Below, piece by piece: positions 8,821-38,758 of a stretch of 40,305 bases of DNA. Source of the DNA: a bacterium (lineage in GTDB: Bacteria > Patescibacteriota > Patescibacteriia > Patescibacteriales > VMTK01); NCBI GenBank assembly GCA_030693295.1, contig JAUYAT010000026.1:1-40305 (forward strand), given 5' to 3'. Below the pieces are notes generated by a model, which was not told the origin of the DNA, did no database searches, and saw nothing but the letters and a program-made list of their open reading frames with translations. Position numbers and translations under genes: made by a program. The first letter of the stretch is position 1. Each line of letters opens with the position of its first letter.

Positions 8821-8858
8821 ATTTCTAATTTCTAATTTCTAATTTCTAATTTCTAATT
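8821..8858. repeat. Heptamer tandem array before pilC
   Basis: Five ATTTCTA units in a row, ending 7 bp before ATG 8866. The same heptamer precedes the giant gene (19428-19448). Confidence 0.9.
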
Positions 8859-8865
8859 TTTATTT

Positions 8866-10099: not shown

Positions 10100-10108
10100 T
10101 GTGGATAA
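10100..10108 (-). promoter_or_regulatory. DnaA-box consensus match at the pilin transcription start
   Basis: TGTGGATAA is the exact reverse complement of the DnaA consensus TTATCCACA. It abuts the -10 hexamer, where a bound protein would block initiation. One 9-mer can occur by chance. Confidence 0.35.
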
Positions 10109-10205
10109 GTGAATATAGTTAAATATTAATCTTCACGATATTAAAATTCCCATGCTTGTCAATTTAAAAACAAATAAAGCGGGTAAATTAATTTTCGTGA
10201 GTCAT

Positions 10206-10217
10206 GGAAGGGAGGTG
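10206..10217 (+). promoter_or_regulatory. Strong Shine-Dalgarno of the pilin gene
   Basis: GGAAGGGAGGTG precedes ATG 10222. It contrasts with the heptamer arrays that stand in this position for pilC, ftsZ and others. Confidence 0.8.
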
Positions 10218-10221
10218 AAAC

Positions 10222-10662: not shown

Positions 10663-10703
10663 AATAAATTCTTAAAAGGATCCTATTAAGGATTTTAATT
10701 TTT

Positions 10704-10735
10704 CCCGCTCCGGTTTTACCGGAGCGGGTTTTTTT
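10704..10735 (+). terminator. Rho-independent terminator after the pilin gene
   Basis: CCCGCTCCGG, loop TTTTA, CCGGAGCGGG, then seven T. A perfect 10-bp GC-rich stem. Confidence 0.95.
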
Positions 10736-10747
10736 AATATTCCTTTA

Positions 10748-10776
10748 ATGACATCATTAATAAATTAAGCTATAAT
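10748..10776 (+). promoter_or_regulatory. Promoter of pilD
   Basis: ATGACA (10748-10753), 17-bp spacer, TATAAT (10771-10776). It lies just after the pilin terminator and 28 bp before ATG 10804, so the leader is short. Confidence 0.65.
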
Positions 10777-10803
10777 GTGAATATATAACGATTAAGATTT
10801 TGT

Positions 10804-19448: not shown

Positions 19449-19463
19449 ATTTTGAATTTTACC

Positions 19464-22400: not shown

Positions 22401-25400
22401 AGACTTGATGGTTATAATGAAAGCAACACAATAAAAAATATTATTATCAGTAATTTTAACAGTGGAATTGGTTTATTTGACAAGGGCAATAAATTCAATG
22501 TTTTCTCGGATATTATGTCAAGCTATAATCAATATGGAATTCAAGCTTATAAGTGGCAGGTTAATACTTCTGAATCAAATATTTTTACCTATATCGTAGC
22601 GAATAATAACAGCGCCAGAGGAATTTATTTGAATTATGGTTTGAACAATGTATTAACTTACAGTAATTTATTTAATAATGGCGTATATGGATTAGAACTT
22701 TATGGGGGAACCGGTTCTAATACCGTTGCCAGCAGCACATTAAAGCTTAACGCCACTGATGTTAATATATACAGTTCAATCAATAATGTTTTTTATAATA
22801 ATCAGTTTACTTCCAATACAAAAATAAGCGATAGCGCGACGAACGCCACTGTTTGGGATAATGGAATTAAAGGCAATTGGTGGGAAGCGTATGACGCTGA
22901 CGAGGACGGTTGTTTTGACAGCGGCGCCAATCCCGACCCCAATTTCATCACGCCATCAAACCCTGTGGCTGGCGATAGTTTATGCGACAACCGTTATGAA
23001 GTGAAAACAGGGATTTACGATAGGTATCCGCAGTATAAAGGAGGCGTTGGCGCTGTTTACACCTGTTCAACTTGCGCCGAATGCAACAGTAAAATAATTC
23101 AAGCGAAATACGGGGATAAAGTTCAGTTAACTCAAGATATATTTGGCGTGGTCAGCACTTGTATTGAACTTAATTATAAGCAAGGCATTACTTTTGACTG
23201 CCAAAATCATCTTATCAGCGGCCAAAACAGCGGTTATGGAATTCAGATTAAGGGCAATTTGCAAAATGATTATAATACAATAAAAAATTGCGTGGTATCA
23301 AAATTTCAATACGGCGTTTATATATACCAGTCTTCCGCGAACACCATGGACAATATTACAACCGATAGTAATAGTTATTATGGTGTTTATTCAAAAAATT
23401 CAAATTTTAACACTTTGACCAATATTACGGCAAAAAATCACACATCATACTCTGGAATTTATTTTGATGGTTCTGATAATAATCAATTATCTCAAATTAC
23501 AGTTAACAATAATACAATAGGAATTTATTTTTTAAATGGCTCTGATAATAATACAGTTACCGCCAGCGTAGGCATAAAATCAAACAAGACAAATGTAGCG
23601 ATAGATACATGGTCGTACAGCAATATTTTTTATAATAATCAATTTATTTCTAAAACAAAGATAAGCGATGACAATACCGGCGTTGGCAATAATATTACGC
23701 ATTGGAATAAATGGGACAGCGCTCCGGGCGACCAGAAGCCGGGCAACCAGTGGGAGGATTATGACACTGTGTCCGAGGGATGCTCTGACGATGGATTCGG
23801 CTATTGCGTTGCTAAACCGTATTGGAAAGACAAGTTTCCCAAGTACTATGGCGTAACCACTGACAGATCCTGCAATACCTGCGAAACTTGCAATACGGAA
23901 ATCGCTAACGCCCTATACGGCGAGAAAGTAACCTTAACGGAGGATATAGCTGGCGTTAATGGAACTTGCGCGACATTAAATTATAAAGAAGGCATAACTT
24001 TTGACTGCGGTAATTTTAAAATTGTCGGCGTAAACGGCAATGATTATTATCAGAGAGGCATTTATGTCAATGGCTTTGGCGCTGAATATAATACTATAAA
24101 AAATTGCAATATTTCCCAGTTTGTTTACGGGGTTTATTTAAATCAGTCTTCTAATAATAATATAAAAAATACCGTTGTTAATTATAATGACTGCGCGGTT
24201 AATTATTGCGACGGCGCCGGCGTTTATTTATATAATAATTCAAACAGTAATAATTTAGACGGTATCACGGCTTCTTATAATGAAAGTGGAATATATTTTT
24301 ATTCTTCCAATTCAAATAATTTAACCAACATTAATTTAAGCAATAACAGCATTAACGGCTTGTATTTTAGCAATTCGGACAGCAATATAGCAAGCTCCAG
24401 CAATATAAAATTAAATACTATTGACGTGAATATTGATTATTCCAGTTCCGACAATAATAAGTTTTATAACAACGAGCTTGTTTCCAAAGATAAAATAGTT
24501 GACAACGGCACAGGCACCAAGTGGGACAATGGCGCCACGGACGGAGGCAACCATTGGGAGCTGTTTGACACGGCGGACGAATGCTATTATGACGGTGCTG
24601 TTCAAATTTGCTGCACCGGCGCAGGCGCTTATTGCGGCAATGTTTATAAAATAGACAATGATAATGGCGCGAGCGACGGCGGAGTTTCGGTTGATAATTA
24701 TCCCAAAACAGGAGCCGTGGCGCAAATTTATACCTGCGAAACTTGCGCCGACTGTTCCGCTAAAATCGCCAGCTCAACAGCAGGGGACACGGTAAAATTA
24801 ACAAAGGATATTATCGGTTACGGCGGAACCTGTATTGATTTCGGCGGCAAAAGCGCAGTAACATTTAATTGCCAGGATTATATAATTAACGGGAATAACA
24901 GCGCTTCAAGCTACGGGGTTTATATTACCAGTGATTATAATACTGTAAAAAATTGCAATATCTCCAATTTTTATTATGGAGTATATTTTTACAATGTTAA
25001 ATTTAGTATTTTAAAATATTCCGCTATAAGCAGTTGCCAAATGGGCGTTAGTTTATATAATTCATATAATAATAGTGTGAGCGAGGTTGGTGTTAGCAAT
25101 AATACTCAATACGGCATTCAGTTTGGTTTTTCTAAATATAATGTATTAACCAACGTCATAGCTAATAATAATCGTTACGGAGTCAGCGCTACTTATAGAG
25201 CGGGTGATAATACTTTAATAAACATTACAGCTCTTAATAATAGCGATTACGGAATCGCGGTCAATGGCGAATATTCGTATGGTGATATGAAAAATACTGT
25301 TATTGCTTCCAGCGTAATAAAATGGAATGGAATAAAAGATATCACAATAGATCAATACGCATGCAATACTATTTTGTATGACAATAAATTTATTTCTAAA

Positions 25401-28400
25401 AATAACATTATTGATAATGGCGGCGAATATAGTTGGACTTGCGGCGGGCAACTGACTATTTGGGATAAAGACGGTGTTGGCAACCATTGGGACGGTTATG
25501 ACAGCGATGACGAGGGCTGTAAAGATGTCGCGCCGATCAATGGCATCTGTGACAGCGCTTATGTAATAGACGCAAATTCCAAGGATAATTATCCCAAATA
25601 TATCGGCGGAATATCAACTTTTTACTGCAATTCCTGCGCCGACTGCAACAATAAAATAGCCAGTTCGTCAAACGGCTCTACAATTTATTTAGCTAACAAT
25701 ATCAGCGATTTCAACGCCGCCGGCAATTGCCTTAATTTTAGTGATAAAAAGCAGAATTTAATTTTTAACTGCCAAGGATATTCGCTTACCGGCAACGGCG
25801 CGACAGGCAACGGCGTTTATCTGAATAATACCGCTAGCGCCGGCATTGGCGCCAATACCATTAAAAATTGCGTTATTAAAAGTTTTAACAAGGGCGTATA
25901 TATAGCTGATTCTGATAATAATATAATCGCTTCAAGCACCATAAACGCGAATATAACCAAAGACATAGAAATTATTGATATCGCTTCAGCCGGCAATATT
26001 TTCTACGCCAATGAATTTTTAAACGAAAGCAAGATGGCGGACGGCGGGACTAACACGCATTGGAATAATTGGACCGGCGCCAATTCAGCTCCGGGCAACC
26101 ATTGGCAGGGTTATGATGAGCCGGTTGAAGCATGTAATGATACTACGCCGGTTGACGGATACTGCGATACGGCTTACACCATTACTTCTTCAAGCGCGGT
26201 TGACAATTATCCGAAATATGTCGGCGCGGTCAGCCAATATGAATGCAATAGCTGCTCCGACTGCAATACAAAAATAGCCGCGGCTGTTTCAGGCGATACT
26301 ATTAAACTAACCAAAAATATTGTCAACCATTCCGGCGACTGCGTTAAATTTCAAGGCAGAACTGGAATAACTTTTGATTGCCAAAATTACGCGATTGACG
26401 GCGATAATATCAGTAATGGAAGCAAAGGAGTTTATTTAAAAAATTCCAACAGTAACAACAAAATTAAAAATTGCCGAATATCAGGGTTCAATTACGGGGT
26501 TTATTTGGAAAATTCAGACTCTAATTATTTAGAAGTTTTAGATGCGAGCAATAATAAAGTTGGCGTTAACGGATACGGCGTTTATCTTACAAGCTCGGGC
26601 GGGGGGCAAGACTCACAATTAAATAATTTAACCAATATAACAGCGAATAATAATTATAGTTACGGCATTTATTTTCAAGGTGGCGACACTAAGTGGAATG
26701 ATTTAATAAATATTATTGCCAATTACAACGGCAATAGCGCGGACAGCAACAGCAGCGGAATTTATTTTGCCGGCGCCCAAGAAAATGATTTAACCAATAT
26801 AACGGCCGATTATAACATCGTTAATGGAATTAATTTAACAGGCGGCAACAATACAGCCACCAGCAGTGAAATCAAATGGAATAAAGTAAACATAAAAAAT
26901 ACCGGTTCCAACAATACTTTTTATAATAATAAATTAATTTCCAAAGAAAAAATAGACGATACCGGAACAGGCACATTATGGGATAATGGAATTAATTTAG
27001 GCAATTGGTGGGAGGCGTTTGACGGCGATAATGAAAATTGCTTTAATGACGGTTCTGATATTTGCACAAACGATTATGAAGCGGAAAGCGGCCGGTTTGA
27101 CGGATTTCCGCAATATAAAGGAGTTGATTTTAACAAACAAGACAAAACTTGCTCAAGCTGTTCTGATTGCAGCGAGAAAATAAAAAGCGCTTATTACGGC
27201 GAAAAAGTTTTATTAACTCAAGACATTAACACCGCCAATGCCGATTGCGTTGATTTTGGCCAGTACAAAGAGGGAGTAACCCTGGACTGCCAGACGCTTT
27301 ATTATATCAGCGGAACAAGCGGTTCAAGTTATAAGGGCGTTTATATTTACGGTTATGGAACGGAAAACAACAGCGTAAAAAATTGCGCGATTTTAGGGTT
27401 TGATTACGGAATTTATGTTTGGTATTCTGATGCCGTTAATTTAACAAATATGGAGATTTATAATAGCGGTGAAGGAATTTATATCTATTCTAACGCCGGT
27501 AATAATATTTTAGACGATATTAAAGCCAACTATAATCGTTATACCGGAGTACGTATTGAGGGTTCTAATAATACTTTTAAAGAAATTAGCGCCAATAACA
27601 ACGAGAGAGGGTTGTTATTAAGCGGCAAAGGTTCTAATACGTTAAGTTCGGCTAATGAGTTTAAAAACAACAGCCAGTCAGGCATACAGGTTTGGTGCTC
27701 CGCCGGCTCGAGCGCGTTTAATACAATTACCGACAGCGTTGTTAAGCAGAATAAAGAAAATATTAATATAGCCGTTGGCTGCACTTTAGCAAGCGGCGTT
27801 GCCAATATTTTTTACGACAATGAGTTTATTTCCAAAGAGAAAATAGACGACCGGGGCGAGACAACGGAATGGGACAACGGCGCCGTTGGCAACTGGTGGG
27901 AGGCGTTTGACTGGGAAGACGAGAGTTGTTACGATGACGCTTCGCAAGGCGGCACTAATTCGATTGCCGGCGATAGTTTGTGCGACAATCGTTATGAAGT
28001 GGAAACAGGAGTTTATGATAATTATCCAAAATACAAAGGCTTGCCGTATAATCAGACCTATACTTGCAACTCCTGCGCCGACTGCAGCAGCAAGATTCAA
28101 AGCGCCCGTTACGGCGAAACGGTTAATTTAGCGCAAGATATTTACACTGAAACTGACTGCGTTAATTTTGGCAATTACAAAGAAGGAGTAACTTTTGATT
28201 GCGATAAAGGCGCGGGAGAAAGATATTCCATTGCCGGCAAGGGCGGTTATACCGGAGTTTATATTAAAGGCGAAGGCGTTGAAAATCACACAGTTAAAAA
28301 TTGCCAGTTGCGCAATTTTGGCACGGGAATTAAGCTTGACGGTTCCGACGGCAATACTATTGAAAATGTCGCGGCCAATAATCCGGGCGCGTATAGTTCC

Positions 28401-30785
28401 GGAGTTTATTTAAATTATTCTGATAATAATAAGTTAAAAAATATTAACGCGGATTACAATTATAACGGAGGAATTTATTTTACTTATTCCAATAATAATA
28501 ATTTAGACAATATCAGCGCTCAATATGGTTATAATACATCTTCTTGCAGTAATTGGATGTGGGGTTATGGGCTTTATTTTCAGAGCAACTCCAGTAATAA
28601 TACAGTTACTAACAGCGTTATAAAATATCATTACAGAAATATATACATATACAATAACACTTCGCAAAATAATAAATTTTATAATAACCATTTTATTTCC
28701 AAGGAAAAAATGGAAGATAATGGAACCGGCACAAAATGGGACGACGGAATAAGCGCGGGCAATTGGTGGGAGGCGTGCGGAGACGCGGATAGCAATGGCA
28801 TTTGCGACGCCATTCCGTACTGGAAAGACAATTTTCCCAAACATGAAGGCGGAGAGGGAACTGTTACAACTTGTACCACCTGCGCTGATTGCAATGAAAA
28901 AATAATTCAGGCAAAATACGGCGAAACAGTGCGGCTGACCAAGGATATATTTTTGCATAGCGGAACCTGCATTAAATTTAATTATAAAGAAGGCGTTATT
29001 TTTGACGGCGGCGGCTGTTTAACAGGCGACTGCATTATTGGCGGCACAGCCGGCGGAGATGGAATTAATGTTTGCGGCGGCGGGATGGAAAATAATAAAA
29101 TAGAAAATTTTGATCTCATTACTAATTTTACAAATGGAATTTATATTAATCAATCCGCTGCAAATATTTTGGAAAATATCGCGGCAAATAACAACAATAA
29201 CGCAGGGATTTATTTAACAAGTTCTAATCTAAATAACTTGCTAAACATCAGCGCTAATAATAATTACGGCTATCCGGGGACAGGTATTTATTTTTCAAAT
29301 TCAAGCAGTAATTTTTTAATAGATATTAACGCTAATAATAATAAAGGAGGTGGTTATTACGGCGTGGGTTGCGGCATACTATTCCAAAACAGCAATACCA
29401 ATATTTTAACCAATATAATCACCAATAACAATATCAACAAAATTACCGGCGGCGGTGTTTGTTTCAGTGGTTCCAATTCTAATGTTTTAAATAATATTAC
29501 CGCTAATAATAATTCGCTTGAGAAGGATTCCTGGTATGGCATTGACAAAGGCGGCGGCGTTTATTTCAGCAGTTCCAATTCAAATATTTTAACTAATATT
29601 ATCGCGGAAAATAACACAATGGATAGCGCGGGCAGCGGCGGCGGTTTGAGTTTTAATTCTTCAAGCAATAATAAAATTTCTTTTGCCACATCAACCAGCA
29701 ATTACAAAGACGGAATTTATTTTTCCAATTCCGGCAGCAACACCATAGCTTCCAGCACAATCAGCGGAAACAACAACAAAGACATAAACATATCAAGCGG
29801 CTCCGGCAATATGTTTTTCGCCAATGAATTTAATTCAAAAAGCAATATGGCTGACAACGGCGCCAGCACCCGTTGGAATTATTGGACCGGTTCTGCCAAT
29901 GCCAAGCCGGGCAACCACTGGGACGCTTATGACACGGCAGGGGAATGCTGTTTTGACAGCGGGGCCAACCCTGATTCCTGCGGCGGAACTCCGGTTAGTT
30001 TTTGGCCGTATGACGGCTATTGCGACAATCGCTATGAAATAAAAACAGGTGTTTATGACAATTACCCAATAAGAAAATCCGTAAAGCCGGCTGATTTTTC
30101 CATTACCGCCGCGTACGCGGGTTCGCTTACAAGCAATTCAACTTGCGAAAATATAATATTTTGGGAAAATAATGGGGACGTTGACGAATATGGCATATAT
30201 CGCTCCACGGACGGAATTATTTACAACAAGATTGACACGGTTGATTACTCTAAAAATAATTATATTGATAGCGCCGTTGATTATTTGAATTATTACGGCT
30301 ATTATATAGAAGCAAGAAACGGCGTTTTTACGACCATTGCCGACTGCAATTACGGCGGCGGCTTGCGCCCCTACTGCGAGGAAGATAACGGTACGGAAAC
30401 AGCCGCGCTTTATCCGACTATCTGTTTGGCTGATTTAACTGTTTCAGGCGTTTGCAGCGCGGTTGACTTAAGTTGGGCCGATGTTACGCCGACCGGCAGT
30501 TATTACGGTTTAAGAAGCGATGACGGAGGCGCGGTTTATAATAACATTTACAGCGTGTCAGACGACAATAGTTCAGACCCATGGACATATCAGGACACGG
30601 ACGCTTCAACCAGCATAGATTTTTATTATAAAATACAAAACTGTATCGGCGCCTGCCCCAGCTCTATTGAATGCCAGCCGGATGCGGCCGGTCCGCGCGA
30701 TGATTGCTACGCGGAATCAAATATTGGAACCATCAATCCCTGCCAGACTTTTTTAATGCCGACATGGAAAGAGGTTAAACCATAA
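19464..30785 (+). CDS. Giant secreted modular beta-helix protein (NosD-like repeats, about 3,773 aa)
   Basis: I chose ATG 19464 over TTG 19452. A signal peptide (about 1-35, cleavage likely after AKA) opens the protein. Twelve modules of about 190-400 residues follow, each starting with a C-x2-C-x2-C motif (for example CNSCADCNNKI). First-cysteine codons are at 19581, 20670, 21249, 22206, 23064, 23871, 24735, 25626, 26244, 27150, 28065 and 28872. Each module then has FDCQ-type strands, Asn-rich parallel beta-helix rungs (NNTITNN, GIYFSNS), and an ending like GNWWEAYD..DEGC.D...DNYPKY, which recalls the GNYWSDY...D.YP end of NosD-type helices. Two fibronectin-III-like domains close it (from about 30070). 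There is no LPXTG motif and no obvious C-terminal membrane helix. It is probably a surface or secreted adhesin or carbohydrate-binding fibre; the target is unknown. Confidence 0.88.
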   Translation: MLHKNSKVGTAAQFGLIAVCVIFFVFLAFAGEAKAATYQCDSCGDCRNKINSAGNGDTVELNKDIWNTTDLETAGSDRACAIFNNKQNITFDCRDYVIDGTGYNYGVYFSDGSNGNTIKNCYITGFSNGIYVNYADSLTFNEVEINYNSSYGIYFYGVNTTSNSISNTLSNVTANNNNTGIFFQYSSSNTLSNVAANNNNGNGIDFSGAATGNNLNNVAANNNSGRGIYLSSFASGFLTSCTAAGNQYEGVYLWSSNSNTLSGLTITNNKYTSGISNDYGISFNNSGNNTIINSVIKWNNDGDGDDRDIYISSGSDNVFYNNNLISKSKIKDAGVNTHWNKWDSIGGDQKPGNSWEVFDYDSEGCFDIAPADGYCDSKYLDIPDKLYDDNYPKHINSISAFYCNGCTDCNNKIASSSAGSTVYLSVNINNTAGNCINLKDKQNLTFDCQGYTIDSNGAGGNGVYLDNGGANGLNTVKNCVITDFSIGVYALNSNQNTIIGDTVKANTVDVKLTAALNNVFYNNKFLNQGKITDEEANATAWDNGAVGNHWEGYDSPSEGCVDAAPPAGVCDAGYTISSSGAKDNFAKYVAYDPYSCATCEDCSAKIAVASSGDTIKLTESIVNYSVGTCVKFSNKQGITFDCQGYGIDGTGAANSYGVYILGAGGNDNNTVKNCYVTAFTNGVYANNSNGNNFDNIAANYNTNYGFYFSQSSSNIFKNNITANNNTAGYGLYFVNSNSNILTDPAIAITANNNNRGIFFSNSGSNELINLTANNNTGYGVYFSNSHSNTLSNIAVNNNTTAGIHFSISGNNTIKDSTGIKFNPVNINIASDNGVNGNKFYNNDFVSKNKITDGSALTQWDDGAGQGNWWQSYDSGDEGCVDGGGLICNTAYTVGSLGTKDDFPKWKKLNDDEYHCADCASCTGAIANAMYGDKIILDNHIFGAAGDCVNFESYKEGLTFKSGCSTGDCIIQGPGNYYGIRLDGYNESNTIKNIIISNFNSGIGLFDKGNKFNVFSDIMSSYNQYGIQAYKWQVNTSESNIFTYIVANNNSARGIYLNYGLNNVLTYSNLFNNGVYGLELYGGTGSNTVASSTLKLNATDVNIYSSINNVFYNNQFTSNTKISDSATNATVWDNGIKGNWWEAYDADEDGCFDSGANPDPNFITPSNPVAGDSLCDNRYEVKTGIYDRYPQYKGGVGAVYTCSTCAECNSKIIQAKYGDKVQLTQDIFGVVSTCIELNYKQGITFDCQNHLISGQNSGYGIQIKGNLQNDYNTIKNCVVSKFQYGVYIYQSSANTMDNITTDSNSYYGVYSKNSNFNTLTNITAKNHTSYSGIYFDGSDNNQLSQITVNNNTIGIYFLNGSDNNTVTASVGIKSNKTNVAIDTWSYSNIFYNNQFISKTKISDDNTGVGNNITHWNKWDSAPGDQKPGNQWEDYDTVSEGCSDDGFGYCVAKPYWKDKFPKYYGVTTDRSCNTCETCNTEIANALYGEKVTLTEDIAGVNGTCATLNYKEGITFDCGNFKIVGVNGNDYYQRGIYVNGFGAEYNTIKNCNISQFVYGVYLNQSSNNNIKNTVVNYNDCAVNYCDGAGVYLYNNSNSNNLDGITASYNESGIYFYSSNSNNLTNINLSNNSINGLYFSNSDSNIASSSNIKLNTIDVNIDYSSSDNNKFYNNELVSKDKIVDNGTGTKWDNGATDGGNHWELFDTADECYYDGAVQICCTGAGAYCGNVYKIDNDNGASDGGVSVDNYPKTGAVAQIYTCETCADCSAKIASSTAGDTVKLTKDIIGYGGTCIDFGGKSAVTFNCQDYIINGNNSASSYGVYITSDYNTVKNCNISNFYYGVYFYNVKFSILKYSAISSCQMGVSLYNSYNNSVSEVGVSNNTQYGIQFGFSKYNVLTNVIANNNRYGVSATYRAGDNTLINITALNNSDYGIAVNGEYSYGDMKNTVIASSVIKWNGIKDITIDQYACNTILYDNKFISKNNIIDNGGEYSWTCGGQLTIWDKDGVGNHWDGYDSDDEGCKDVAPINGICDSAYVIDANSKDNYPKYIGGISTFYCNSCADCNNKIASSSNGSTIYLANNISDFNAAGNCLNFSDKKQNLIFNCQGYSLTGNGATGNGVYLNNTASAGIGANTIKNCVIKSFNKGVYIADSDNNIIASSTINANITKDIEIIDIASAGNIFYANEFLNESKMADGGTNTHWNNWTGANSAPGNHWQGYDEPVEACNDTTPVDGYCDTAYTITSSSAVDNYPKYVGAVSQYECNSCSDCNTKIAAAVSGDTIKLTKNIVNHSGDCVKFQGRTGITFDCQNYAIDGDNISNGSKGVYLKNSNSNNKIKNCRISGFNYGVYLENSDSNYLEVLDASNNKVGVNGYGVYLTSSGGGQDSQLNNLTNITANNNYSYGIYFQGGDTKWNDLINIIANYNGNSADSNSSGIYFAGAQENDLTNITADYNIVNGINLTGGNNTATSSEIKWNKVNIKNTGSNNTFYNNKLISKEKIDDTGTGTLWDNGINLGNWWEAFDGDNENCFNDGSDICTNDYEAESGRFDGFPQYKGVDFNKQDKTCSSCSDCSEKIKSAYYGEKVLLTQDINTANADCVDFGQYKEGVTLDCQTLYYISGTSGSSYKGVYIYGYGTENNSVKNCAILGFDYGIYVWYSDAVNLTNMEIYNSGEGIYIYSNAGNNILDDIKANYNRYTGVRIEGSNNTFKEISANNNERGLLLSGKGSNTLSSANEFKNNSQSGIQVWCSAGSSAFNTITDSVVKQNKENINIAVGCTLASGVANIFYDNEFISKEKIDDRGETTEWDNGAVGNWWEAFDWEDESCYDDASQGGTNSIAGDSLCDNRYEVETGVYDNYPKYKGLPYNQTYTCNSCADCSSKIQSARYGETVNLAQDIYTETDCVNFGNYKEGVTFDCDKGAGERYSIAGKGGYTGVYIKGEGVENHTVKNCQLRNFGTGIKLDGSDGNTIENVAANNPGAYSSGVYLNYSDNNKLKNINADYNYNGGIYFTYSNNNNLDNISAQYGYNTSSCSNWMWGYGLYFQSNSSNNTVTNSVIKYHYRNIYIYNNTSQNNKFYNNHFISKEKMEDNGTGTKWDDGISAGNWWEACGDADSNGICDAIPYWKDNFPKHEGGEGTVTTCTTCADCNEKIIQAKYGETVRLTKDIFLHSGTCIKFNYKEGVIFDGGGCLTGDCIIGGTAGGDGINVCGGGMENNKIENFDLITNFTNGIYINQSAANILENIAANNNNNAGIYLTSSNLNNLLNISANNNYGYPGTGIYFSNSSSNFLIDINANNNKGGGYYGVGCGILFQNSNTNILTNIITNNNINKITGGGVCFSGSNSNVLNNITANNNSLEKDSWYGIDKGGGVYFSSSNSNILTNIIAENNTMDSAGSGGGLSFNSSSNNKISFATSTSNYKDGIYFSNSGSNTIASSTISGNNNKDINISSGSGNMFFANEFNSKSNMADNGASTRWNYWTGSANAKPGNHWDAYDTAGECCFDSGANPDSCGGTPVSFWPYDGYCDNRYEIKTGVYDNYPIRKSVKPADFSITAAYAGSLTSNSTCENIIFWENNGDVDEYGIYRSTDGIIYNKIDTVDYSKNNYIDSAVDYLNYYGYYIEARNGVFTTIADCNYGGGLRPYCEEDNGTETAALYPTICLADLTVSGVCSAVDLSWADVTPTGSYYGLRSDDGGAVYNNIYSVSDDNSSDPWTYQDTDASTSIDFYYKIQNCIGACPSSIECQPDAAGPRDDCYAESNIGTINPCQTFLMPTWKEVKP

Positions 30786-30787: not shown

Positions 30788-31885
30788 ATGGAAAATTTAT
30801 TAAAGCAAATTGAAGAATTGCGCGAGCGCCTCCAGAAGATATGGGGGCTTTTGGATATTGATGGGCAAATAACGGAAATTGGAAATTGGAAATTGGAAAT
30901 TGGAAAGCCGGGCTTTTGGAACAATAAGGAACGGGCGGTTGAAGTTGGCAAAAAATTGGAAGACGCGGAAAAAGAAGTTAGTACATGGCAGGAATTAAAA
31001 AAAGAAATAAGAGAATTGGAGGAATTAGTCGCGGTAGCCGCGGAAGAAGGCGATATGTCCATCGCGGAAGACGCGCGCGAGAAATATCAGGAACTGAAAG
31101 AAAAATTTGAAAAATACGAGTTTCTTGTTTTATTTTCCGGCAAGTACGACAAAAATAACGCCATTTTATCAATCCATGCCGGCACTGGCGGGGTTGACGC
31201 GCAGGACTGGTCCGAGATGCTTGTGCGGATGTTTTTAAGGTTTTGCGAAAAAAAAGGATGGAAAGCGGAAATTTTGGACAAAACGGCCGGCGGCGAAGCC
31301 GGCATAAAAAGCGCGGCAATAAAAATATCCGGCCGCTGGGCCTACGGTTATTTAAAAAGCGAATCAGGCGTGCATCGGCTGGTGCGCATTTCGCCTTTTG
31401 ACGCTGAAGCCATGCGCCATACTTCGTTCGCTTTGGTTGAAGTCATTCCGGAACTGCCCGAAGCCGAGGAAATTAAAATTAAAGACGAGGATTTGCGGAT
31501 TGATGTTTTCCGTTCGTCAGGCCCCGGCGGCCAGAGCGTGAACACCACCGATTCGGCCGTGCGCGTCGTCCATATTCCGACTAATATTGTTGTCGCTTGC
31601 CAAACCGAACGCTCCCAGCATCAAAACAAAGAAACAGCTTTAAAAATATTAAAATCCAAATTATTTAAATTGGAAGAAGAAGAGAAAGAAAAAAAAGAAA
31701 GAGAATTAAGAGGCGAAGCGCAAAAAGCCGAGTGGGGCAAGCAGATCAGATCTTATGTGCTTCAGCCCTATAAGATGGTTAAGGACCACAGGACGAATTG
31801 TGAGACCGCGGATGTTGACGGAGTGTTAGATGGGGATTTGGAGCCGTTTATGGAAGCGTATTTACGGTGGGCGCGGATTTTGTAG
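30788..31885 (+). CDS. prfB: Peptide chain release factor 2
   Basis: A 365-residue factor that releases the peptide at UAA/UGA. The stop-recognition tripeptide SPF is at 202-204 (RF1 would have PxT) and the catalytic GGQ at 247-249. AGTGGVDAQDW near 131-141 is also typical. The frame is continuous: there is no CTTTGA programmed frameshift site, so the classic autoregulation is absent. Residues about 29-40 (EIGNWKLEIGK) are encoded by a heptamer array, yet the distance between flanking conserved residues looks normal. It starts 2 bp after the giant gene, so it may be translated by coupling to it. Downstream palindromes overlap its stop. Confidence 0.96.
   Translation: MENLLKQIEELRERLQKIWGLLDIDGQITEIGNWKLEIGKPGFWNNKERAVEVGKKLEDAEKEVSTWQELKKEIRELEELVAVAAEEGDMSIAEDAREKYQELKEKFEKYEFLVLFSGKYDKNNAILSIHAGTGGVDAQDWSEMLVRMFLRFCEKKGWKAEILDKTAGGEAGIKSAAIKISGRWAYGYLKSESGVHRLVRISPFDAEAMRHTSFALVEVIPELPEAEEIKIKDEDLRIDVFRSSGPGGQSVNTTDSAVRVVHIPTNIVVACQTERSQHQNKETALKILKSKLFKLEEEEKEKKERELRGEAQKAEWGKQIRSYVLQPYKMVKDHRTNCETADVDGVLDGDLEPFMEAYLRWARIL
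30874..30907. repeat. Heptamer array inside prfB
   Basis: Four GGAAATT units plus GGAAAG, in frame, coding for parts of EIGNWKLEIGK. Confidence 0.9.
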
Positions 31886-31940
31886 GGGCATTGCGCGCAA
31901 TGCCCCAATGATCAGGGGCGTAGCACGCTACGCCCCTACA
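31881..31940. repeat. Composite palindromic element between prfB and comEC
   Basis: A perfect 22-bp palindrome (31885-31906, GGGGCATTGC/GCAATGCCCC) and a second one (31914-31937, AGGGGCGTAG/CTACGCCCCT). Both lie within outer inverted repeats TGTAGGGGC (31881-31889) and GCCCCTACA (31932-31940). It overlaps the prfB stop codon. No T run follows, so it is more like a REP element than a terminator. Confidence 0.8.
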
Positions 31941-31949
31941 ATATGATTA

Positions 31950-33548
31950 ATGAATTTATCCAAATCCAAAATATTCTTAATCTGTTGTCTTGCGTTTATT
32001 GCCGGCGTTGCCATCGCTTCGTTTTTGCCGATTAAAATTATACAAAATGATTTATGGTGGTTCGCGGGAATGGTTGGATGCGCGGTATTATTGATTTTAT
32101 TTCGGCTGAATGCAAAAATTAGATTAACAGCTTTGATCGGGCTGTTTTTATTTTTAGCAATATGGCGCTATTCAATCAGCTTGCCGATTGATACGCCGGA
32201 TAAAATTTGGCATTATAACGGGCGAATGATTATAGTGTCGGGCGCGGTGTCAGACGAACCGGATATTAGGCAGAATAATGTTAAGTTAGAAGTAAAAAGT
32301 AATAAGTTAAAAATATTTCAAGAGCCGCAATCTTCAATAGCGGGCTGGAACTATGTTTCCGGTAAAATTTTGGTTACTGCAAATTTATACCCAGCTTACA
32401 ATTACGGCGATGAATTGGAAATTGTCTGCGAACTGCAGGCGCCGGAAAGGTTTAACAATTTTTCTTATGACAGGTATTTGGCCAGATATGACATTTATTC
32501 AGTTTGCTATTACCCGGAAATAAAATTAGCGGCCAAAGCCGTTGCGCGCGATACATTCGCGGGCTGGTTTTATGGGAACATTTTTAGCTTAAAAAGCAAA
32601 TTGCGCGAAATTATCAATTACGGCTTGAGCGAACCGGAAGCAAGTTTGGCAGGCGCGATTGTTTTAGGCGATAAACGATCTATTCCGGACGATTTGCGCC
32701 AGAGGTTTTCTCAATCCGGCCTAAGCCATATTATGGCAATCTCGGGCCTGCATATAAGCATTTTGGCGATGTTGGTTATGAGCTTGCTATTGGGGCTTGG
32801 CCTGTCGCGCAAAAAAGCTTTCTGGCTGGCTGTTTTATTTTTATTAGTTTATATTGTTTTAATCGGCTTGCCGGCTTCCGCTCTGCGCGCCGGCTTGATG
32901 GGTTTTTTAGCGCTCTACGCGATGAATATCGGGCGGCTGAATAAATTAACCAATTCATTGGTATTCGCCGCCGCGGTTTTACTGCTGTTTAATCCAAAAT
33001 TATTGCGCGACGACATCAGCTTTCAACTTTCCTTTTTAGCCGTGTTAGGCATCGCGCATATTTATCCGATTTTAGACGGCTGGTTTGAGAAATTTTCAAA
33101 AACTTTTTCAAAATTTTCAAAGTCTTCGCAAAGCATGGCTCGGATTATATACAGCGCGTTTGGCATAACTTTGGCGGCGCAGGTTTTCACTTTGCCGATT
33201 ATCGCCTATAATTTTTTTATAATTTCTATTGTCGCGCCTCTTAGTAATTTGTTGGTTTTGTGGACTTTGCCTTTATTAATTTCATTGGTTTTAACCGCTT
33301 TGATTCTAAGTTTAATGCTGCCCCAGCTTGCTGTTTTATTTTTTCTACCGGCCGGGCTTTTATTGAAATATATTATATTTATTGTTGAGCGGTCAACTGA
33401 ATTGCCCTATGCTTATATTCAAGTTGATTATTTATGGCCGGGCTGGCTGATTATTTATTACGGGGCCGCCGGCTGGCTTTTATTCCGTCTTAAAAGAAAA
33501 ACGGAACATAAAAATCTTGAAGTCGCGCAAAGCGCCGCGGCAAAATAA
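31950..33548 (+). CDS. comEC: ComEC/Rec2-family DNA-uptake channel
   Basis: A 532-residue polytopic membrane protein that carries incoming single-stranded DNA across the cytoplasmic membrane. Hydrophobic helices lie at about 6-75. An OB-like soluble domain (about 88-195) holds VSGAVSDEPD and GDELEIVC. The Competence domain runs from about 235 to 505, with the signature LGDKRSIP (239-246) and SGLSHIMAISGLHI (256-269). The C-terminal metallo-beta-lactamase-like nuclease domain of full ComEC (such as the 776-residue Bacillus protein) is absent, so it ends at the channel. Together with the pilus genes and pilT it suggests natural competence. It ends at a bidirectional terminator against the LysM gene. 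Confidence 0.9.
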   Translation: MNLSKSKIFLICCLAFIAGVAIASFLPIKIIQNDLWWFAGMVGCAVLLILFRLNAKIRLTALIGLFLFLAIWRYSISLPIDTPDKIWHYNGRMIIVSGAVSDEPDIRQNNVKLEVKSNKLKIFQEPQSSIAGWNYVSGKILVTANLYPAYNYGDELEIVCELQAPERFNNFSYDRYLARYDIYSVCYYPEIKLAAKAVARDTFAGWFYGNIFSLKSKLREIINYGLSEPEASLAGAIVLGDKRSIPDDLRQRFSQSGLSHIMAISGLHISILAMLVMSLLLGLGLSRKKAFWLAVLFLLVYIVLIGLPASALRAGLMGFLALYAMNIGRLNKLTNSLVFAAAVLLLFNPKLLRDDISFQLSFLAVLGIAHIYPILDGWFEKFSKTFSKFSKSSQSMARIIYSAFGITLAAQVFTLPIIAYNFFIISIVAPLSNLLVLWTLPLLISLVLTALILSLMLPQLAVLFFLPAGLLLKYIIFIVERSTELPYAYIQVDYLWPGWLIIYYGAAGWLLFRLKRKTEHKNLEVAQSAAAK

Positions 33549-33597
33549 AAAGAGGGAAAACCTTATATTTGGCTCCCTCTTCGCGCTTTTTATTTTT
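33541..33597. terminator. Bidirectional terminator between comEC and the LysM gene
   Basis: AAGAGGGA (33550-33557) and TCCCTCTT (33574-33581) form a stem, with inner CC/GG pairs. The T-rich tract comes right after the stem on the minus strand and about 6 bases after it on the plus strand, suiting convergent genes. Confidence 0.7.
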
Positions 33598-33598: not shown

Positions 33599-33628
33599 GT
33601 GGAGTTAAAATATATATTTTAACTCCAC
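33599..33628. repeat. Perfect 30-bp palindrome over the end of the LysM gene
   Basis: GTGGAGTTAAAATAT is followed by its exact reverse complement. On the minus strand it encodes VELKYIF and the stop TAA. No T tract follows directly. Confidence 0.85.
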
Positions 33629-35299
33629 ATATGTTCTATCTTTATTGTCAAATTGGCCGAAGTTGCCATTCGGCTCGCCTCCGAATATATCCGCGCCGGC
33701 GGCAACTTGCCAGCACCCGTTTATTTTATAATTAATTTTCGGTCTCAATAGATAATCGTTTTTATCAAGGCCGAAAACGAAAAGCAGTTCCGGCTCCAGC
33801 TTATTGTCTAAAAATCCGGTTTTTAGCCAGACAGAAGCTGAAGTGTTTGTTTTGCCGTCTATCATTTTGTCGTCATGGTTGAAAACGATTCTTTGCATAA
33901 ATTGGAAATTAAAATCTATTTTTCCAAAGAATGTATAGTCAACTCCGATGATGTAGTCAATAAAATCTTTTTTAACTGCGCCGTCAGAGTCGGTTGAATC
34001 ATCAACTGAAAAATATTTGCCTTTGTTATATACCAACTCTCCTTTTAAGATTATATCGTTAAGATCTTTGGAAAAAGTCGCTCCAAAGATCGGCAGTCTT
34101 TCATATTGCGGCTTTAAGGTGATTACAGGCGTTGAAGTTGCCGGGTCTATGTTTAGCGCCCTAAAAACGGTTGGGAAATAGTCATATCCGTAAAAGCCAA
34201 AAGCCGATATGTCTAATCCCAATTTTTCCAGAAAGCGCGACATCCTGAACCCAACTTCTTGATTTTTTATTTTTTTTGCCGGTTTTTCCAAATTTTCAGA
34301 ATAAACCGGTATTCCTTGGGGCATTGGCGGCCCTTTTAGCTCAAATTCCGAGCCAAGAACGCCCAGCTCATGAAATTTGGGAAAAGGCAGCCAAACAAGC
34401 TCAAAATGATTGCCCTTGTAAAAATATTCCAAATCGGCCGCCCAAACGGGAACGCGCATCTGGTCCGGTTCGGGCAAAATAAACTCTCTTAAGTCTTTGG
34501 GATTTACCACATCGGCAAAAAAGAGCCCGCCGACCGTTTCCCCCCAAACGATTTGCTGCTTGCCAACCCTTAAGTCAAAATTCCCCAGAGAAAAATCCAG
34601 AAATCCGTCGCGAAGCTCGGCTTCGCGCTCTTGGTTTTTTTCTACCCCTTTGGCGAAGTTGTCGGTAAAATCAAATACGGCATCATAGTAAAGCCGCGCG
34701 GTTGCTTTGTATCCTATATTGTCCGCAAATTTTCCCTCTTTGCCAACGAATAATATATTTTTTATTTTGGCAAATTCTTCGGGATGGTTAATTCTATACG
34801 CGGTTTCGTTTTTTACAAAACCATGGATGCCTAAATCTTTCAGGCCGCATGGCTGTTCAGTTTCAGTTTTTTCTTCTTTTTCTGTTTGCGGTTCCGTCGC
34901 AACAGGTTCTAAATCTTCCGGTTTTTCATCTTCTATTTGTATATGCTCTCCTTCAGCGCTTATTTCGGTTTGTGGTTCTGTTTTTTCTTCCCTTTTCTTT
35001 TCCGATGGCGCTTTTATTTTTTTGTCATCGGTTGGCTTATCGTTAGGTTTGCCCGACTCGCATGGCAGTTTAAGCACTTTCCCTATACGCAATTTTTCAG
35101 GATCGCGGATGCCGTTCAGCTTGGCAATTTTTTTCCATAACAGCGGATTGCCCATTTCCTTTTCGGCGATTTGCCATAAGGTATCGCCCTTTTGAATTTT
35201 TATCCCGTCCGGGTTCTTTTTGTAACATAATGCAGTCCCGGAGAAAACCAGGACTGAAAAAATAAAAACAAATAACAGTCCTGTAATTTTTTGTCTCAT
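33605..35299 (-). CDS. LysM-domain protein with DUF1302-like outer-membrane beta-barrel
   Basis: A 564-residue exported protein. It has a signal peptide (about 1-25), one LysM peptidoglycan-binding domain (about 32-79, KIQKGDTLWQIAEKEMG), an acidic/Lys/Pro-poor linker (about 80-150) and a C-terminal domain (about 155-564) of alternating amphipathic strands. The stretch LRVGKQQIVWGE...FADVVNPKDLREF (about 243-273) resembles the DUF1302 family of Gram-negative outer-membrane proteins. The last residues VELKYIF end in Phe, as outer-membrane barrels do. Patescibacteria are generally thought to lack an outer membrane, so this is unexpected. The gene stands alone and inverted, with its own strong promoter and a GGAGG site, unlike its neighbours. 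Transfer is likely. The barrel assignment comes from pattern reading only. Confidence 0.72.
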   Translation of the reverse strand: MRQKITGLLFVFIFSVLVFSGTALCYKKNPDGIKIQKGDTLWQIAEKEMGNPLLWKKIAKLNGIRDPEKLRIGKVLKLPCESGKPNDKPTDDKKIKAPSEKKREEKTEPQTEISAEGEHIQIEDEKPEDLEPVATEPQTEKEEKTETEQPCGLKDLGIHGFVKNETAYRINHPEEFAKIKNILFVGKEGKFADNIGYKATARLYYDAVFDFTDNFAKGVEKNQEREAELRDGFLDFSLGNFDLRVGKQQIVWGETVGGLFFADVVNPKDLREFILPEPDQMRVPVWAADLEYFYKGNHFELVWLPFPKFHELGVLGSEFELKGPPMPQGIPVYSENLEKPAKKIKNQEVGFRMSRFLEKLGLDISAFGFYGYDYFPTVFRALNIDPATSTPVITLKPQYERLPIFGATFSKDLNDIILKGELVYNKGKYFSVDDSTDSDGAVKKDFIDYIIGVDYTFFGKIDFNFQFMQRIVFNHDDKMIDGKTNTSASVWLKTGFLDNKLEPELLFVFGLDKNDYLLRPKINYKINGCWQVAAGADIFGGEPNGNFGQFDNKDRTYVELKYIF

Positions 35300-35301
35300 G
35301 A

Positions 35302-35312
35302 CGAACCTCCAG
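35302..35312 (-). promoter_or_regulatory. Strong Shine-Dalgarno of the LysM gene
   Basis: On the minus strand CTGGAGG precedes ATG 35299 by about 6 bases; such sites are rare in this window. Confidence 0.7.
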
Positions 35313-35347
35313 TTTATTTATTTTATTGTAAAGAACATAAACATCTT

Positions 35348-35376
35348 ATTATAATGTAAACCATAAAAAAAGTCAA
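35348..35376 (-). promoter_or_regulatory. Strong promoter of the LysM gene
   Basis: On the minus strand TTGACT (35376-35371), 17-bp spacer, TATAAT (35353-35348). The leader is about 45 nt. Confidence 0.75.
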
Positions 35377-35458: not shown

Positions 35459-35731
35459 ATGTTATCAAAGCACAAACAATTATTAAAAGAAAAAGGCGAA
35501 TTGTATTTAAGAATAAAGGCGCGGCCCGGCGCCGCCAAAACCGCCGTCAGGGAAATAACGGATGATGAAACCGTGAAGATGGATATTGCCGCCCCGCCGG
35601 TTAAAGGCAAAGCCAATAAAGAGCTGGTTGAATTTTTGGCGAAAAATTTTGCAGTTTCAAAAAATAATGTTAAGATTATAAGCGGAGCGGCTTCGCGGAC
35701 TAAGCTAATAAAAATAATTAATAATTCGTAA
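35459..35731 (+). CDS. YggU-family (DUF167) protein
   Basis: A 90-residue protein of the widespread DUF167/YggU family, whose function is unknown. It shows the typical order: IKARPGAAKTAV (residues 19-30), then APPVKGKANKELVEFLAKNF (44-63), VKIISGAASRTKLIKI (71-86). It is complete and of normal length. It is transcribed away from the LysM gene and lies 21 bp before the polyprenyl synthase, with which it may form an operon. The TTGGAA/TAAGAT pair upstream (35400-35428) is a weak promoter candidate. Confidence 0.88.
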   Translation: MLSKHKQLLKEKGELYLRIKARPGAAKTAVREITDDETVKMDIAAPPVKGKANKELVEFLAKNFAVSKNNVKIISGAASRTKLIKIINNS

Positions 35732-35752
35732 TTTAATTATTTTGCAAACGGT

Positions 35753-36826
35753 ATGAATTTTAAAAATTTTTATAGCGCGCATAAAGAGAAAATAAACCAA
35801 GAATTAGGCAAGTTTTTAAATATAAAAACAAGGCAGGCAAAAAAGATTTCAAAAGATTGCGAAAAGCTGACGGAAGCTGTTAAAGAATTTACGCTCCGCG
35901 GCAGGAGCAAAAGAATCAGAGCATTGCTGGTTATATTGGGTTACGCGGGATTTGGCGGAAGAAATGGCAGAGAGATTATTAAAGCCGCTTCGTTTATTGA
36001 GTTAATTCATAGTTATCTGTTGATTCATGACGATATTATTGATCAGGATGATTTGCGCAGAGGCAAGCCAACGATGCATAAATATTTTGAGCATTCGGTA
36101 AAATCTAAATTATCAAAAGATAAAAGCAAACTTTTCGGCGTTTCAATGGGGATATTGGCGGGCGATTTATGTTGTTCATTGGGATATGAAATATTAATGA
36201 AAGCAAAATTTTCCGACAAGGCGAAAGCAAGAGCTATTGAAGAATTGGATAATTTAATTTTTAACGTGATACAAGGAGAAGCATTGGATGTTTTTGCTCA
36301 GCTGTCAAAACAAACAAGCAACAAGGAAATTTATAATATTTATAAATATAAAACCGCGCGTTATTCTTTTGAACAGCCGTTGCGTATCGGCGGCATTTTA
36401 GCCGGCGCTGGTGAAAGCGATTTAAACAAATTAAGCAAATTCGCTATCCCGCTCGGCATAGCTTTTCAAATTCAAGATGATTTGTTGGGATTGTTGGGCG
36501 AAGAAAAAACTATCGGCAAGCCGGCGGGCTCGGATTTAAGAGAGGGAAAAAAGACCATGGTGCTGTCATTGGCGCTGGAAAGATGCAATAGTAAAGAGAG
36601 AAAAATCGTTCAAAGCGTGTTGGGCGGCAAAGACATTGATTTAAAAGATATAAATAGAGTTAGGGATATTGCGCGGAAAACCGGCGCATTGCGGCTTTGC
36701 GGCGAATTGATACGCGATTATATCAGTAAAAGCAAGAAAGCGCTTAACAAGATTGATAATTTTGACGCTACTGCCAGATCATTATTGATTGAGCTGGCGG
36801 ATTATATTTCCAATAGAGAATATTAA
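35753..36826 (+). CDS. Polyprenyl diphosphate synthase (trans-isoprenyl type)
   Basis: A 357-residue enzyme that condenses isopentenyl diphosphate with an allylic diphosphate to make C15-C20 or longer all-trans chains. The first aspartate-rich motif is HDDIID (Asp93, Asp94, Asp97), followed by DLRRGKPTMH. The second is QDDLLG (Asp242, Asp243), followed by GKPAGSDLREGKKT. The chain length cannot be read reliably. The uppS gene starts 2 bp downstream, so the two probably work in sequence: this enzyme supplies the allylic primer (for example farnesyl diphosphate) that UppS extends into the lipid carrier. Confidence 0.93.
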   Translation: MNFKNFYSAHKEKINQELGKFLNIKTRQAKKISKDCEKLTEAVKEFTLRGRSKRIRALLVILGYAGFGGRNGREIIKAASFIELIHSYLLIHDDIIDQDDLRRGKPTMHKYFEHSVKSKLSKDKSKLFGVSMGILAGDLCCSLGYEILMKAKFSDKAKARAIEELDNLIFNVIQGEALDVFAQLSKQTSNKEIYNIYKYKTARYSFEQPLRIGGILAGAGESDLNKLSKFAIPLGIAFQIQDDLLGLLGEEKTIGKPAGSDLREGKKTMVLSLALERCNSKERKIVQSVLGGKDIDLKDINRVRDIARKTGALRLCGELIRDYISKSKKALNKIDNFDATARSLLIELADYISNREY

Positions 36827-36828
36827 AT

Positions 36829-37557
36829 ATGACTGATAAAAAAATTACAATTCCAAAGCATGTCGGCATTATTATGGACGGCAACCGGCGCTGGGCAAAA
36901 GAAAGAAACTTACCTTCCATTGAAGGCCATCACAAGGGTTATGAAAAGTTGAAACAAGCGCCTTCGTGGTTTTTCAGCAGAGGAGTTTCCATTATTTCTG
37001 TTTACGCTTTTTCCTCTGAAAACTGGAATCGCTCGCGAGACGAAGTAAATTATCTTATGAAATTGGTTAAAATAGCTTTTGACAGGGATTTAGACGATTT
37101 TAACCAGCGAGGTTGCAAAGTTTTGATCAGCGGCCGCGTGGACGAATTGCCCGGGGATCTGCCCGAATTATGCTATGAGGCGATGAATAAAACAAAGGCT
37201 AATCAAAAAGGAACTTTAAATATCTGCCTTAATTACGGCGGCCGGGCGGAAATTGTTGACGCGGCGCGCAAAATGATAAAAAATAAAGTCGCGCCGGAGC
37301 AGGTCCATGAAGGCATGATTAAAAAATATTTGTATCAGGGAGAATTGGACGACCCTGATATTATTGTCCGCACTTCAGGCGAACAGCGCTTGTCCGGCTT
37401 TATGCTTTGGCAGTCGGCTTACAGCGAGCTGATGTTTATAAAAAAATATTGGCCTGATTTCGAAGAGAGCGATGTTGATTTGATATTGGCCGAATACGCT
37501 GATAGAAAAAGAAGATTCGGGGGAGACGGGCAAGAAGTAAAAAGAAGTTATGAATAA
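36829..37557 (+). CDS. uppS: Undecaprenyl (cis-polyprenyl) diphosphate synthase
   Basis: A 242-residue cis-prenyltransferase that makes the C55-type lipid carrier for cell-wall and surface polymers. HVGIIMDGNRRWA near residues 11-23 has the catalytic Asp17. Other family motifs are GHHKGYEKL, SVYAFSSENWNRS, NICLNYGGRAEIVDA and IVRTSGEQRLSGFMLWQSAYSEL. Length and motifs are normal. Its end overlaps the start of rarA by 8 bp, so these genes form one operon. Confidence 0.96.
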   Translation: MTDKKITIPKHVGIIMDGNRRWAKERNLPSIEGHHKGYEKLKQAPSWFFSRGVSIISVYAFSSENWNRSRDEVNYLMKLVKIAFDRDLDDFNQRGCKVLISGRVDELPGDLPELCYEAMNKTKANQKGTLNICLNYGGRAEIVDAARKMIKNKVAPEQVHEGMIKKYLYQGELDDPDIIVRTSGEQRLSGFMLWQSAYSELMFIKKYWPDFEESDVDLILAEYADRKRRFGGDGQEVKRSYE

Positions 37558-38758
37558 GCAAATAAAAAATTCTCCGCTGGCGGACAGGATGCGGCCGGAA
37601 AAGCTGGAAGATTTTTTAGGCCAGAACGAAATTGTGGGCGAAGAGAAGCTGTTAAGCCGGGCGATTGAATCCGACAGGTTGCCATCAATGATTTTTTGGG
37701 GGTCGCCCGGAAGCGGCAAAACCACTTTGGCTTATATTATCGCCAAGCGGACCAAATCGGACTTTATCCAATTCAGCGCCGTTGCCAGCGGAGTCAAAGA
37801 GCTGAAAGAAGCGATAAAGAGAGCGGAAGAGAATAAAAGGTTAAACAAAAAAACCATTCTTTTTATAGATGAAATCCACCGCTGGAACAAGGCGCAGCAG
37901 GACGGCTTATTGCCGCATGTTGAGCGCGGCGTTATTGTTTTAATCGGCGCCACAACTGAAAATCCCAGTTTTGAAGTGCGCGGGGCTTTGCTTTCGCGCT
38001 GTCGCGTTTTTACGCTAAAGCGGCTGGCCGAAGAGCATATCATTAAAATAATCAAGCGGGCTTTAATTGATAAAGATCGGGGATTGGGCAAATTAAAAAT
38101 TAAAATTGACAACAAAACAATGGGAGTGCTGGCGCGAATGAGCAACGGCGACGCGCGCGCGGCTTTGAATACCCTGGAATACGCCGGCTCAATAAGCAAG
38201 AATATTGATTTGGCGGTTATTAAAGAAGCGTTTCAAAAATCGTATTTATTTTACGATAAAGACGGGGAGGAGCATTATAATATTATTTCGGCTCTGCATA
38301 AATCAATGCGCGGCTCCGACGCCGATGCCGCTTTGTATTGGCTGGCGCGGATGCTGGAGGCGGGCGAAGACCCTTTGTATGTCGCCCGCAGATTGGTGCG
38401 CTTCGCGTCCGAAGATATCGGCCTGGCTAACTCGCGGGCGCTGGAGCAGGCGGTTGCCGCTTACCAGGCCTGCCATTTTATCGGCATGCCTGAATGCAAT
38501 GTGATATTGGCGCAGACGGCAGTATATATGGCAAAGTGCGAAAAATCCAATGATTTATATATCGCTTACGGCAAGGCGGCTCGCGACGTTAAAGAATACG
38601 GCAATTTGCCCGTGCCTTTGCATATCCGCAACGCGCCAACCGAGTTGATGAAAAATTTGGATTACGGCAAGGACTACAAGTATTCGCCGGATTTTGATTA
38701 TAAAGAAAAGCAAGAGTATCTGCCGGAAGAGCTTGGAGGGAGAAAATATCTTCAATAA
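37550..38758 (+). CDS. rarA: Replication-associated recombination ATPase RarA (MgsA)
   Basis: A 402-residue AAA+ clamp-loader-like ATPase that acts at stalled replication forks. The N-terminal RPEKLEDFLGQ (16-25) is typical. Walker A is GSPGSGKTT (51-59), Walker B ILFIDEIHRWNKAQQD (103-118), sensor 1 IGATTENPSFEV and the arginine-finger region LLSRCRVF. The C-terminal tetramerisation part includes SDADAALYWLARMLEAGEDP and RLVRFASEDIGLAN, which separates it from DnaX and RuvB. The size is normal. It overlaps uppS by 8 bp. Confidence 0.95.
   Translation: MNKQIKNSPLADRMRPEKLEDFLGQNEIVGEEKLLSRAIESDRLPSMIFWGSPGSGKTTLAYIIAKRTKSDFIQFSAVASGVKELKEAIKRAEENKRLNKKTILFIDEIHRWNKAQQDGLLPHVERGVIVLIGATTENPSFEVRGALLSRCRVFTLKRLAEEHIIKIIKRALIDKDRGLGKLKIKIDNKTMGVLARMSNGDARAALNTLEYAGSISKNIDLAVIKEAFQKSYLFYDKDGEEHYNIISALHKSMRGSDADAALYWLARMLEAGEDPLYVARRLVRFASEDIGLANSRALEQAVAAYQACHFIGMPECNVILAQTAVYMAKCEKSNDLYIAYGKAARDVKEYGNLPVPLHIRNAPTELMKNLDYGKDYKYSPDFDYKEKQEYLPEELGGRKYLQ

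Follow-up and report, generated by a model that had tools for sequence, protein, structure and literature searches.

The stretch of DNA analyzed here (the window, 40,305 nt) is contig C26 of a 1,056,697-base (1.06 Mb) genome, an assembly of 62 contigs with 89.9% completeness and 2.3% contamination. The genome size and the profile of the class, sampled over 292 genera with genomes of about 1 Mb and without Omp85, are consistent with the Patescibacteria. Between comEC and yggU lies a single gene oriented opposite to its neighbours, whose intact reading frame encodes a 564-aa protein from an ATG start (Table 1). A first-pass annotation of this DNA had delimited the gene at 33605-35376; the first boundary stands, whereas the open reading frame ends at 35299 and the stretch up to 35376 takes in the promoter. 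Its description of an isolated, inverted gene with a strong promoter and a GGAGG site of its own was confirmed. comEC and the barrel gene converge on a hairpin with z-scores of -2.3 on the forward and -3.1 on the reverse strand; it is terminator-like in both directions and, judging from the sequence, would be common to the two genes.

Table 1. Coordinates of the features discussed in the text (positions in the window unless another locus is named).
Feature	Location	Strand	Basis or remark
CDS, signal peptide - LysM - linker - DUF1302 β-barrel, 564 aa	33605..35299	-	
Signal peptide, residues about 1-25	35225..35299	-	Read from sequence; helix 2-17 in model
LysM, residues 34-79	35063..35200	-	Pfam PF01476, 37.0 bits; same position in whole-genome search
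Charged disordered linker, residues 80-155 (76 residues)	34835..35062	-	Composition; pLDDT about 27-36
DUF1302 β-barrel, residues 156-564, C-terminal Phe	33608..34834	-	Pfam PF06980, AlphaFold2, Foldseek, alignment
Shine-Dalgarno GGAGG, 6 nt before ATG	35306..35310	-	Sequence
Sigma-70-type promoter TTGACT-17-TATAAT, 11/12 matches	35348..35376	-	
Divergent promoter-like site in front of yggU, 10/12	35326-35355	+	Overlaps barrel-gene promoter
Hairpin between convergent comEC and barrel genes	33550..33581	.	T run on each side
Left flank, prfB-comEC	30788..33548	+	Syntenic with relatives of family and order
Right flank, yggU - polyprenyl synthase - uppS - rarA	35459..38758	+	Synteny with G006
AMIN protein, LolA_like protein and 663-aa AMIN-like-linker-barrel in a row	L144 (G013:C13:98000-110000), 1732-6290		
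MMPL - LolA_like - DUF1302-like cassette, argS-type neighbour	L142 (G276:C12), 6763-11161		18-kb contig; host-like codon usage
MMPL - LolA_like - DUF1302-like cassette, tyrS-argS-type neighbours	L118 (G053:C71), 4940-9397		Foreign codon usage
MMPL - LolA_like - DUF1302-like cassette, hrcA-grpE-hsp20-dnaK-type neighbours	L156 (G029:C11), 463-5128		Foreign codon usage

The protein is organized as a signal peptide, a LysM, a charged linker and a C-terminal DUF1302 β-barrel whose final residue is Phe, in agreement with the domains proposed initially. The LysM score lies above the curated Pfam cut-off of 20.9 bits, and the DUF1302 profile (PF06980) matched residues 193-452 with 63.7 bits (E 2e-17), above its cut-off of 23.2 bits. 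NCBIfam returned sub-threshold LysM matches only, and neither SLH nor the inverse-autotransporter barrel PF11924 gave a Pfam match in the 564-aa protein at E <= 1. As read from the sequence, the signal peptide is followed by Cys26, without a typical lipobox. Residues 85-150 of the linker include 22 acidic, 11 basic and 8 Pro residues.

AlphaFold2, supplied with an alignment of 19 sequences, gave a barrel model for residues 156-564, in which some 18-20 strands run up to the C-terminal Phe, with block-mean pLDDT values mostly of 88-96 and a few loops at 66-77. In this model the linker is disordered and the protein ends with the barrel, with no passenger behind it. The LysM folded on its own gave a low-confidence model, so that the assignment of this domain rests on Pfam. 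The top Foldseek matches in the PDB were all outer-membrane barrels, namely OmpF/OmpC-type porins, OccAB1 and Veillonella OmpM1 (best E 8e-12, probability 1.00, target-normalized TM-scores about 0.5), and those in a viral fold library were mostly phage-borne porins and other barrels; the barrel profile found no relative among PDB sequences. Profile search and structure prediction both point to a barrel rather than a non-barrel fold, and the predicted fold is that of an outer-membrane β-barrel of the DUF1302 family.

The gene is embedded in a host-type neighbourhood. On its left, prfB and comEC share 70-81% and 52-63% identity, respectively, with their counterparts in related genomes of the family and the order. 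On its right, G006 keeps the gene order with one extra gene (yggU 53%, polyprenyl synthase 56%, uppS 73% and rarA 78% identity). It is only in this genome that comEC and yggU adjoin; the two blocks are apart in every relative compared, so no empty site was seen. The gene 3' of comEC in these relatives is another polyprenyl synthase (G002, G021), a metallo-β-lactamase-like gene (G001) or an acylphosphatase-like gene (G006). The window's comEC (31950-33548, forward strand) lacks the metallo-β-lactamase part; in G001, a relative from the same family, this part follows comEC as a gene of its own (L113, 4401-5309).

A neighbourhood unique to one genome invites the suspicion of an assembly artefact, in which a piece of a diderm genome would have been joined into a Patescibacteria contig. 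The restriction of the LysM-barrel to a single genome and the contaminant appearance of other barrels in the order (G023, G247 and perhaps G097) point the same way. Such an artefact, however, requires two joins within 1.9 kb, each between intact genes, with host-type sequence on both sides and a terminator hairpin shared with comEC. Composition also argues against it: the mean codon log-likelihood of the barrel region is -1.032, compared with -0.970 to -1.095 (about -0.97 to -1.10) for the window's own genes and -1.18 to -1.21 for sampled diderm barrels (L003-L005) on the same reference, and the GC content of the gene (0.41) is like that of the contig. Nothing points to a break at 33550 or 35400, the two places that the first-pass annotation had named for a possible chimera; from the sequence, a chimeric contig is unlikely, and we give the artefact a low probability.

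A scan of bacterial genomes with the barrel retrieved 102 encoding stretches. The nearest, L003, L004 and L005, share 66% identity over the whole barrel and come from metagenome-assembled genomes (MAGs) labelled Proteobacteria, Deltaproteobacteria and Thermodesulfobacteriota. LysM is absent from these three and from all close relatives compared; in L007 and L008, an AMIN domain occupies its position between signal peptide and barrel. In L004-L007 the barrel is the last gene of an operon that also encodes an ABC ATPase, an FtsX/MacB permease and a LolA-like carrier. A ThiF-type gene comes next in L003, L005 and L007, and a gene for a FeeM-type N-acyl amino acid synthase is close by in L004 and L005. 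Neither exporter nor LolA-like carrier is found beside the window barrel gene. Elsewhere in the genome the MacB-type permeases are generic only (22-34% identity over part of the query), and the LolA-like query from the donor operon had no match at E <= 1, a weak negative, as this query matched nowhere.

The maximum-likelihood tree nests the window barrel among sequences of deltaproteobacterial MAGs, beside L003-L005 (100/98 support), in a clade (100/99) that comprises sequences of Thermodesulfobacteriota, Myxococcota, Omnitrophota and Acidobacteriota. The barrel gene is absent from the sole other genome of the same family compared. No relative occurs on viral contigs, and plasmid records hold distant barrels only (22-27%), without the LysM part. 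Lateral acquisition from a diderm bacterium is thus well supported at the sequence level, by the 66% identity, the nested placement, the absence from the family relative and the order-typical flanks. Transfer followed by use in the envelope was one of the two origins first suggested; the transfer is supported, and the use in the envelope is inferred from the LysM and the intact gene. Instead of being added once the gene had moved, the LysM may have come with it from a donor outside the sample.

An acquired gene may also be a mere passenger, recently transferred from a diderm neighbour, intact, useless and destined to be lost. This explanation gains from the patchy occurrence of the barrels, from a lone gene deprived of its partners, from the lack of obvious insertion machinery and from the similar cassettes of G029 and G053, which are still foreign in composition. 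Against it, codon usage has drifted to that of the host, and the branch leading to the gene since its split from the sampled relatives measures 0.37 changes per site, with neither a stop nor a frameshift. The gene also has a promoter, a Shine-Dalgarno site and a terminator of its own, and carries a LysM that its relatives lack. We regard the passenger explanation as doubtful. By sequence comparison, purifying selection was strong over the history that the barrel shares with its relatives (pN 0.21, pS saturated at 0.81-0.84); since dS is saturated, some of this selection may date from before the transfer.

The other origin first suggested, a lineage with an outer layer of its own that holds barrels, is not supported by the survey. 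The search of this genome for Omp85 found none, and no Omp85 exceeded the cut-off in any of the 381 genomes of the class, as against seven of 14 control genomes. The window encodes a type IV pilus cluster (PilB-, PilT-, PilC-, pilin- and PilD-type genes) in which PilQ has no Pfam match; CPR type IV pilus clusters have likewise been described without PilQ (PMC6744442). Groundwater ultrasmall cells attach to diderm hosts, and cryo-TEM shows an outer membrane on the hosts and none on the ultrasmall cells (PMC7906910). With an outer membrane of its own, the lineage would use the protein as an ordinary stalked porin tethering membrane to wall, as OmpM does in diderm Terrabacteria; the architecture matches that of a tether porin, OmpM1 is among the fold matches, and the relative G013 has an AMIN-barrel together with a LolA-like protein. 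However, this envelope is not supported because Omp85, PilQ and any LolA-like match are lacking in the searches above and the groundwater cells were imaged without an outer membrane; moreover, the barrel family is sporadic, in at most six of the 111 genomes of the order. We consider it highly improbable.

The reading that we favour, with a probability of roughly 0.55, is a laterally acquired DUF1302 barrel that became, or arrived as, a stalked barrel anchored to the wall. By analogy, it most likely works like OmpM or LysM-bearing adhesins, with the barrel tethered to the cell wall. The protein would be exported by Sec and held on peptidoglycan by its LysM, and the 76-residue linker, roughly 20 nm or more if extended, would let the barrel reach outward, as in OmpM or YeeJ. 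Binding of LysM to the wall belongs to the biology of this genome, since it encodes other LysM proteins, one of them an M23-type peptidase. Against the wall-anchored barrel, with Omp85 missing it has no known route into a membrane, the isolated LysM model is of low confidence, and the LysM version occurs in this genome only, with no other barrel-profile match in the sampled phylum set. In a further locus of the same genome (L122, G000:C33:9000-24000; 6071-8881, reverse strand), a LysM is fused, in a 936-aa protein, to a membrane part of glycosyltransferase-2-like type and to right-handed repeats resembling NosD.

With no recognizable Omp85 for insertion into its own membrane, the wall-anchored barrel would reside either in the outer membrane of a partner or in a surface layer without insertion. 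In the first case, the machinery of an attached diderm partner would assemble the barrel in the partner's outer membrane, where it would act as a wall-to-membrane tether and a channel. Its appeal lies in the expected life of the cell on another bacterium and in the reported lack of de novo fatty acid synthesis in CPR bacteria (PMC7906910), but we judge it rather unlikely; the surface layer, or else a passenger gene, takes up much of the rest. A partner-membrane channel could possibly serve for lipids, by analogy, as DUF1302/LolA-like systems handle hydrophobic cargo and CPR bacteria reportedly make no fatty acids de novo. Here the barrel gene has parted from the ABC exporter and the LolA-like carrier that accompany it in its relatives.

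Several characterized systems share parts of this design. AmeA, the DUF1302 member of the AmeABCD monoterpene efflux system of Castellaniella, is predicted to form the outer-membrane component of a hydrocarbon exporter whose carrier belongs to the LolA superfamily (PMC6394551). The window protein resembles such DUF1302 proteins (PF06980) in barrel family, signal peptide, full-length alignment with diderm sequences and C-terminal aromatic residue. It differs from them in its additional LysM and linker and in a host without recognizable Omp85, and from AmeABCD-like and ABC-LolA-DUF1302 exporters in that no RND or ABC partner and no LolA-like/DUF1329 carrier is encoded here. OmpM is a stalked porin that is both tether and channel (PMC10628300), and the two proteins have in common an N-terminal peptidoglycan-binding-type module, a linker and a C-terminal porin-like barrel, a likeness of architecture only, along with the OmpM1 fold match. 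Unlike OmpM, however, the window protein has a LysM in place of SLH and is a DUF1302 barrel by sequence, and no outer membrane is known in its host, whereas OmpM belongs to a diderm envelope with Omp85. The order signal peptide, LysM, barrel is also that of inverse autotransporters such as YeeJ, whose LysM binds peptidoglycan (PMC5595812), and intimin, but these have the PF11924 barrel and a passenger after it. The same layout is seen in AMIN-DUF1302 proteins, two from Deltaproteobacteria (L007, L008) and one from the relative G013 (L144), which bear another peptidoglycan-associated domain, AMIN, at the place of the LysM; in L007 and in G013 they are accompanied by a LolA-like gene.

This is not the only such case: by sequence comparison, distant DUF1302-like barrels occur sporadically in the order and class. 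The barrel profile detected barrels in four of 381 class genomes and, in the phylum set, in one of 380, which is the present genome; a second profile, built with G013, G053 and G097 among its rows, detected them in six of 111 order genomes. Presence throughout the order was rejected on this count. The strongest other case is G013, a genome of 99% completeness and 1% contamination, where the genes lie on a 136-kb contig that also carries housekeeping genes, namely thrS (NCBIfam) and, as read from sequence, dnaB-, recR-, polC- and murA-type genes. Three genes in a row there have host-like codon usage (z about +0.6); the LolA_like protein scores 152.7 bits, and the 663-aa barrel protein (L144:4299-6287) ends in Phe. 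Neither the AMIN-like part nor the barrel of this protein reaches Pfam: the former was judged by eye from the neighbour, which scores 36 bits, and the latter is a distant match to the family profile of the window barrel (E 1.1e-5; hhalign probability 90.6). G013 would thus represent a second, independent fusion of a wall-binding domain to a barrel in the order. Three further genomes carry MMPL - LolA_like - DUF1302-like cassettes (Table 1), of which those of G053 and G029 could be recent transfers or possible chimeras. Two other candidates were discarded as likely contamination: G023 (L157, G023:C39), where a porin gene adjoins a sulfonate-type ABC transporter on a contig of 5.6 kb, and G247 (L143, G247:C45), on a 5.2-kb contig at 52% GC. 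G097 (L119, G097:C30), on a 3.6-kb contig, is possibly a contaminant.

According to the tree, the six barrels from Patescibacteria bins must have arisen independently at least three to four times, the exact number being unsure given the long branches. A broader scenario would have episymbiotic Patescibacteria without an outer membrane repeatedly capturing diderm barrels, some with LysM or AMIN, for use on the partner's outer membrane as BAM-inserted, wall-tied tethers and channels; we hold this to be distinctly unlikely. The prevailing view gives Patescibacteria a single membrane and no outer membrane, and their ways of docking on Gram-negative partners and feeding from them are an open question. 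In the open-licence papers searched, none reports for this group an outer-membrane-type barrel with a wall anchor such as the LysM-stalked DUF1302 barrel described here. An intact wall-anchored barrel, with independent AMIN-barrel and MMPL-LolA-like-barrel cases in related genomes, either belongs to the machinery for interacting with a host or speaks against the simple picture of one membrane, and it raises a testable question, namely which membrane receives the barrel.

Two other secreted proteins are encoded in the window. A repetitive, NosD-like protein of 3777 aa (parallel β-helix type; 19452-30785, forward strand), with Cys-x-x-Cys in its repeats, lies directly upstream of prfB. A 1011-aa protein (174-3206, forward strand) combines an LCAT/lipase-type domain (91.5 bits) with a FIMAH domain; it is a possible lipid hydrolase, which would be interesting should the cell scavenge lipids from its partner.
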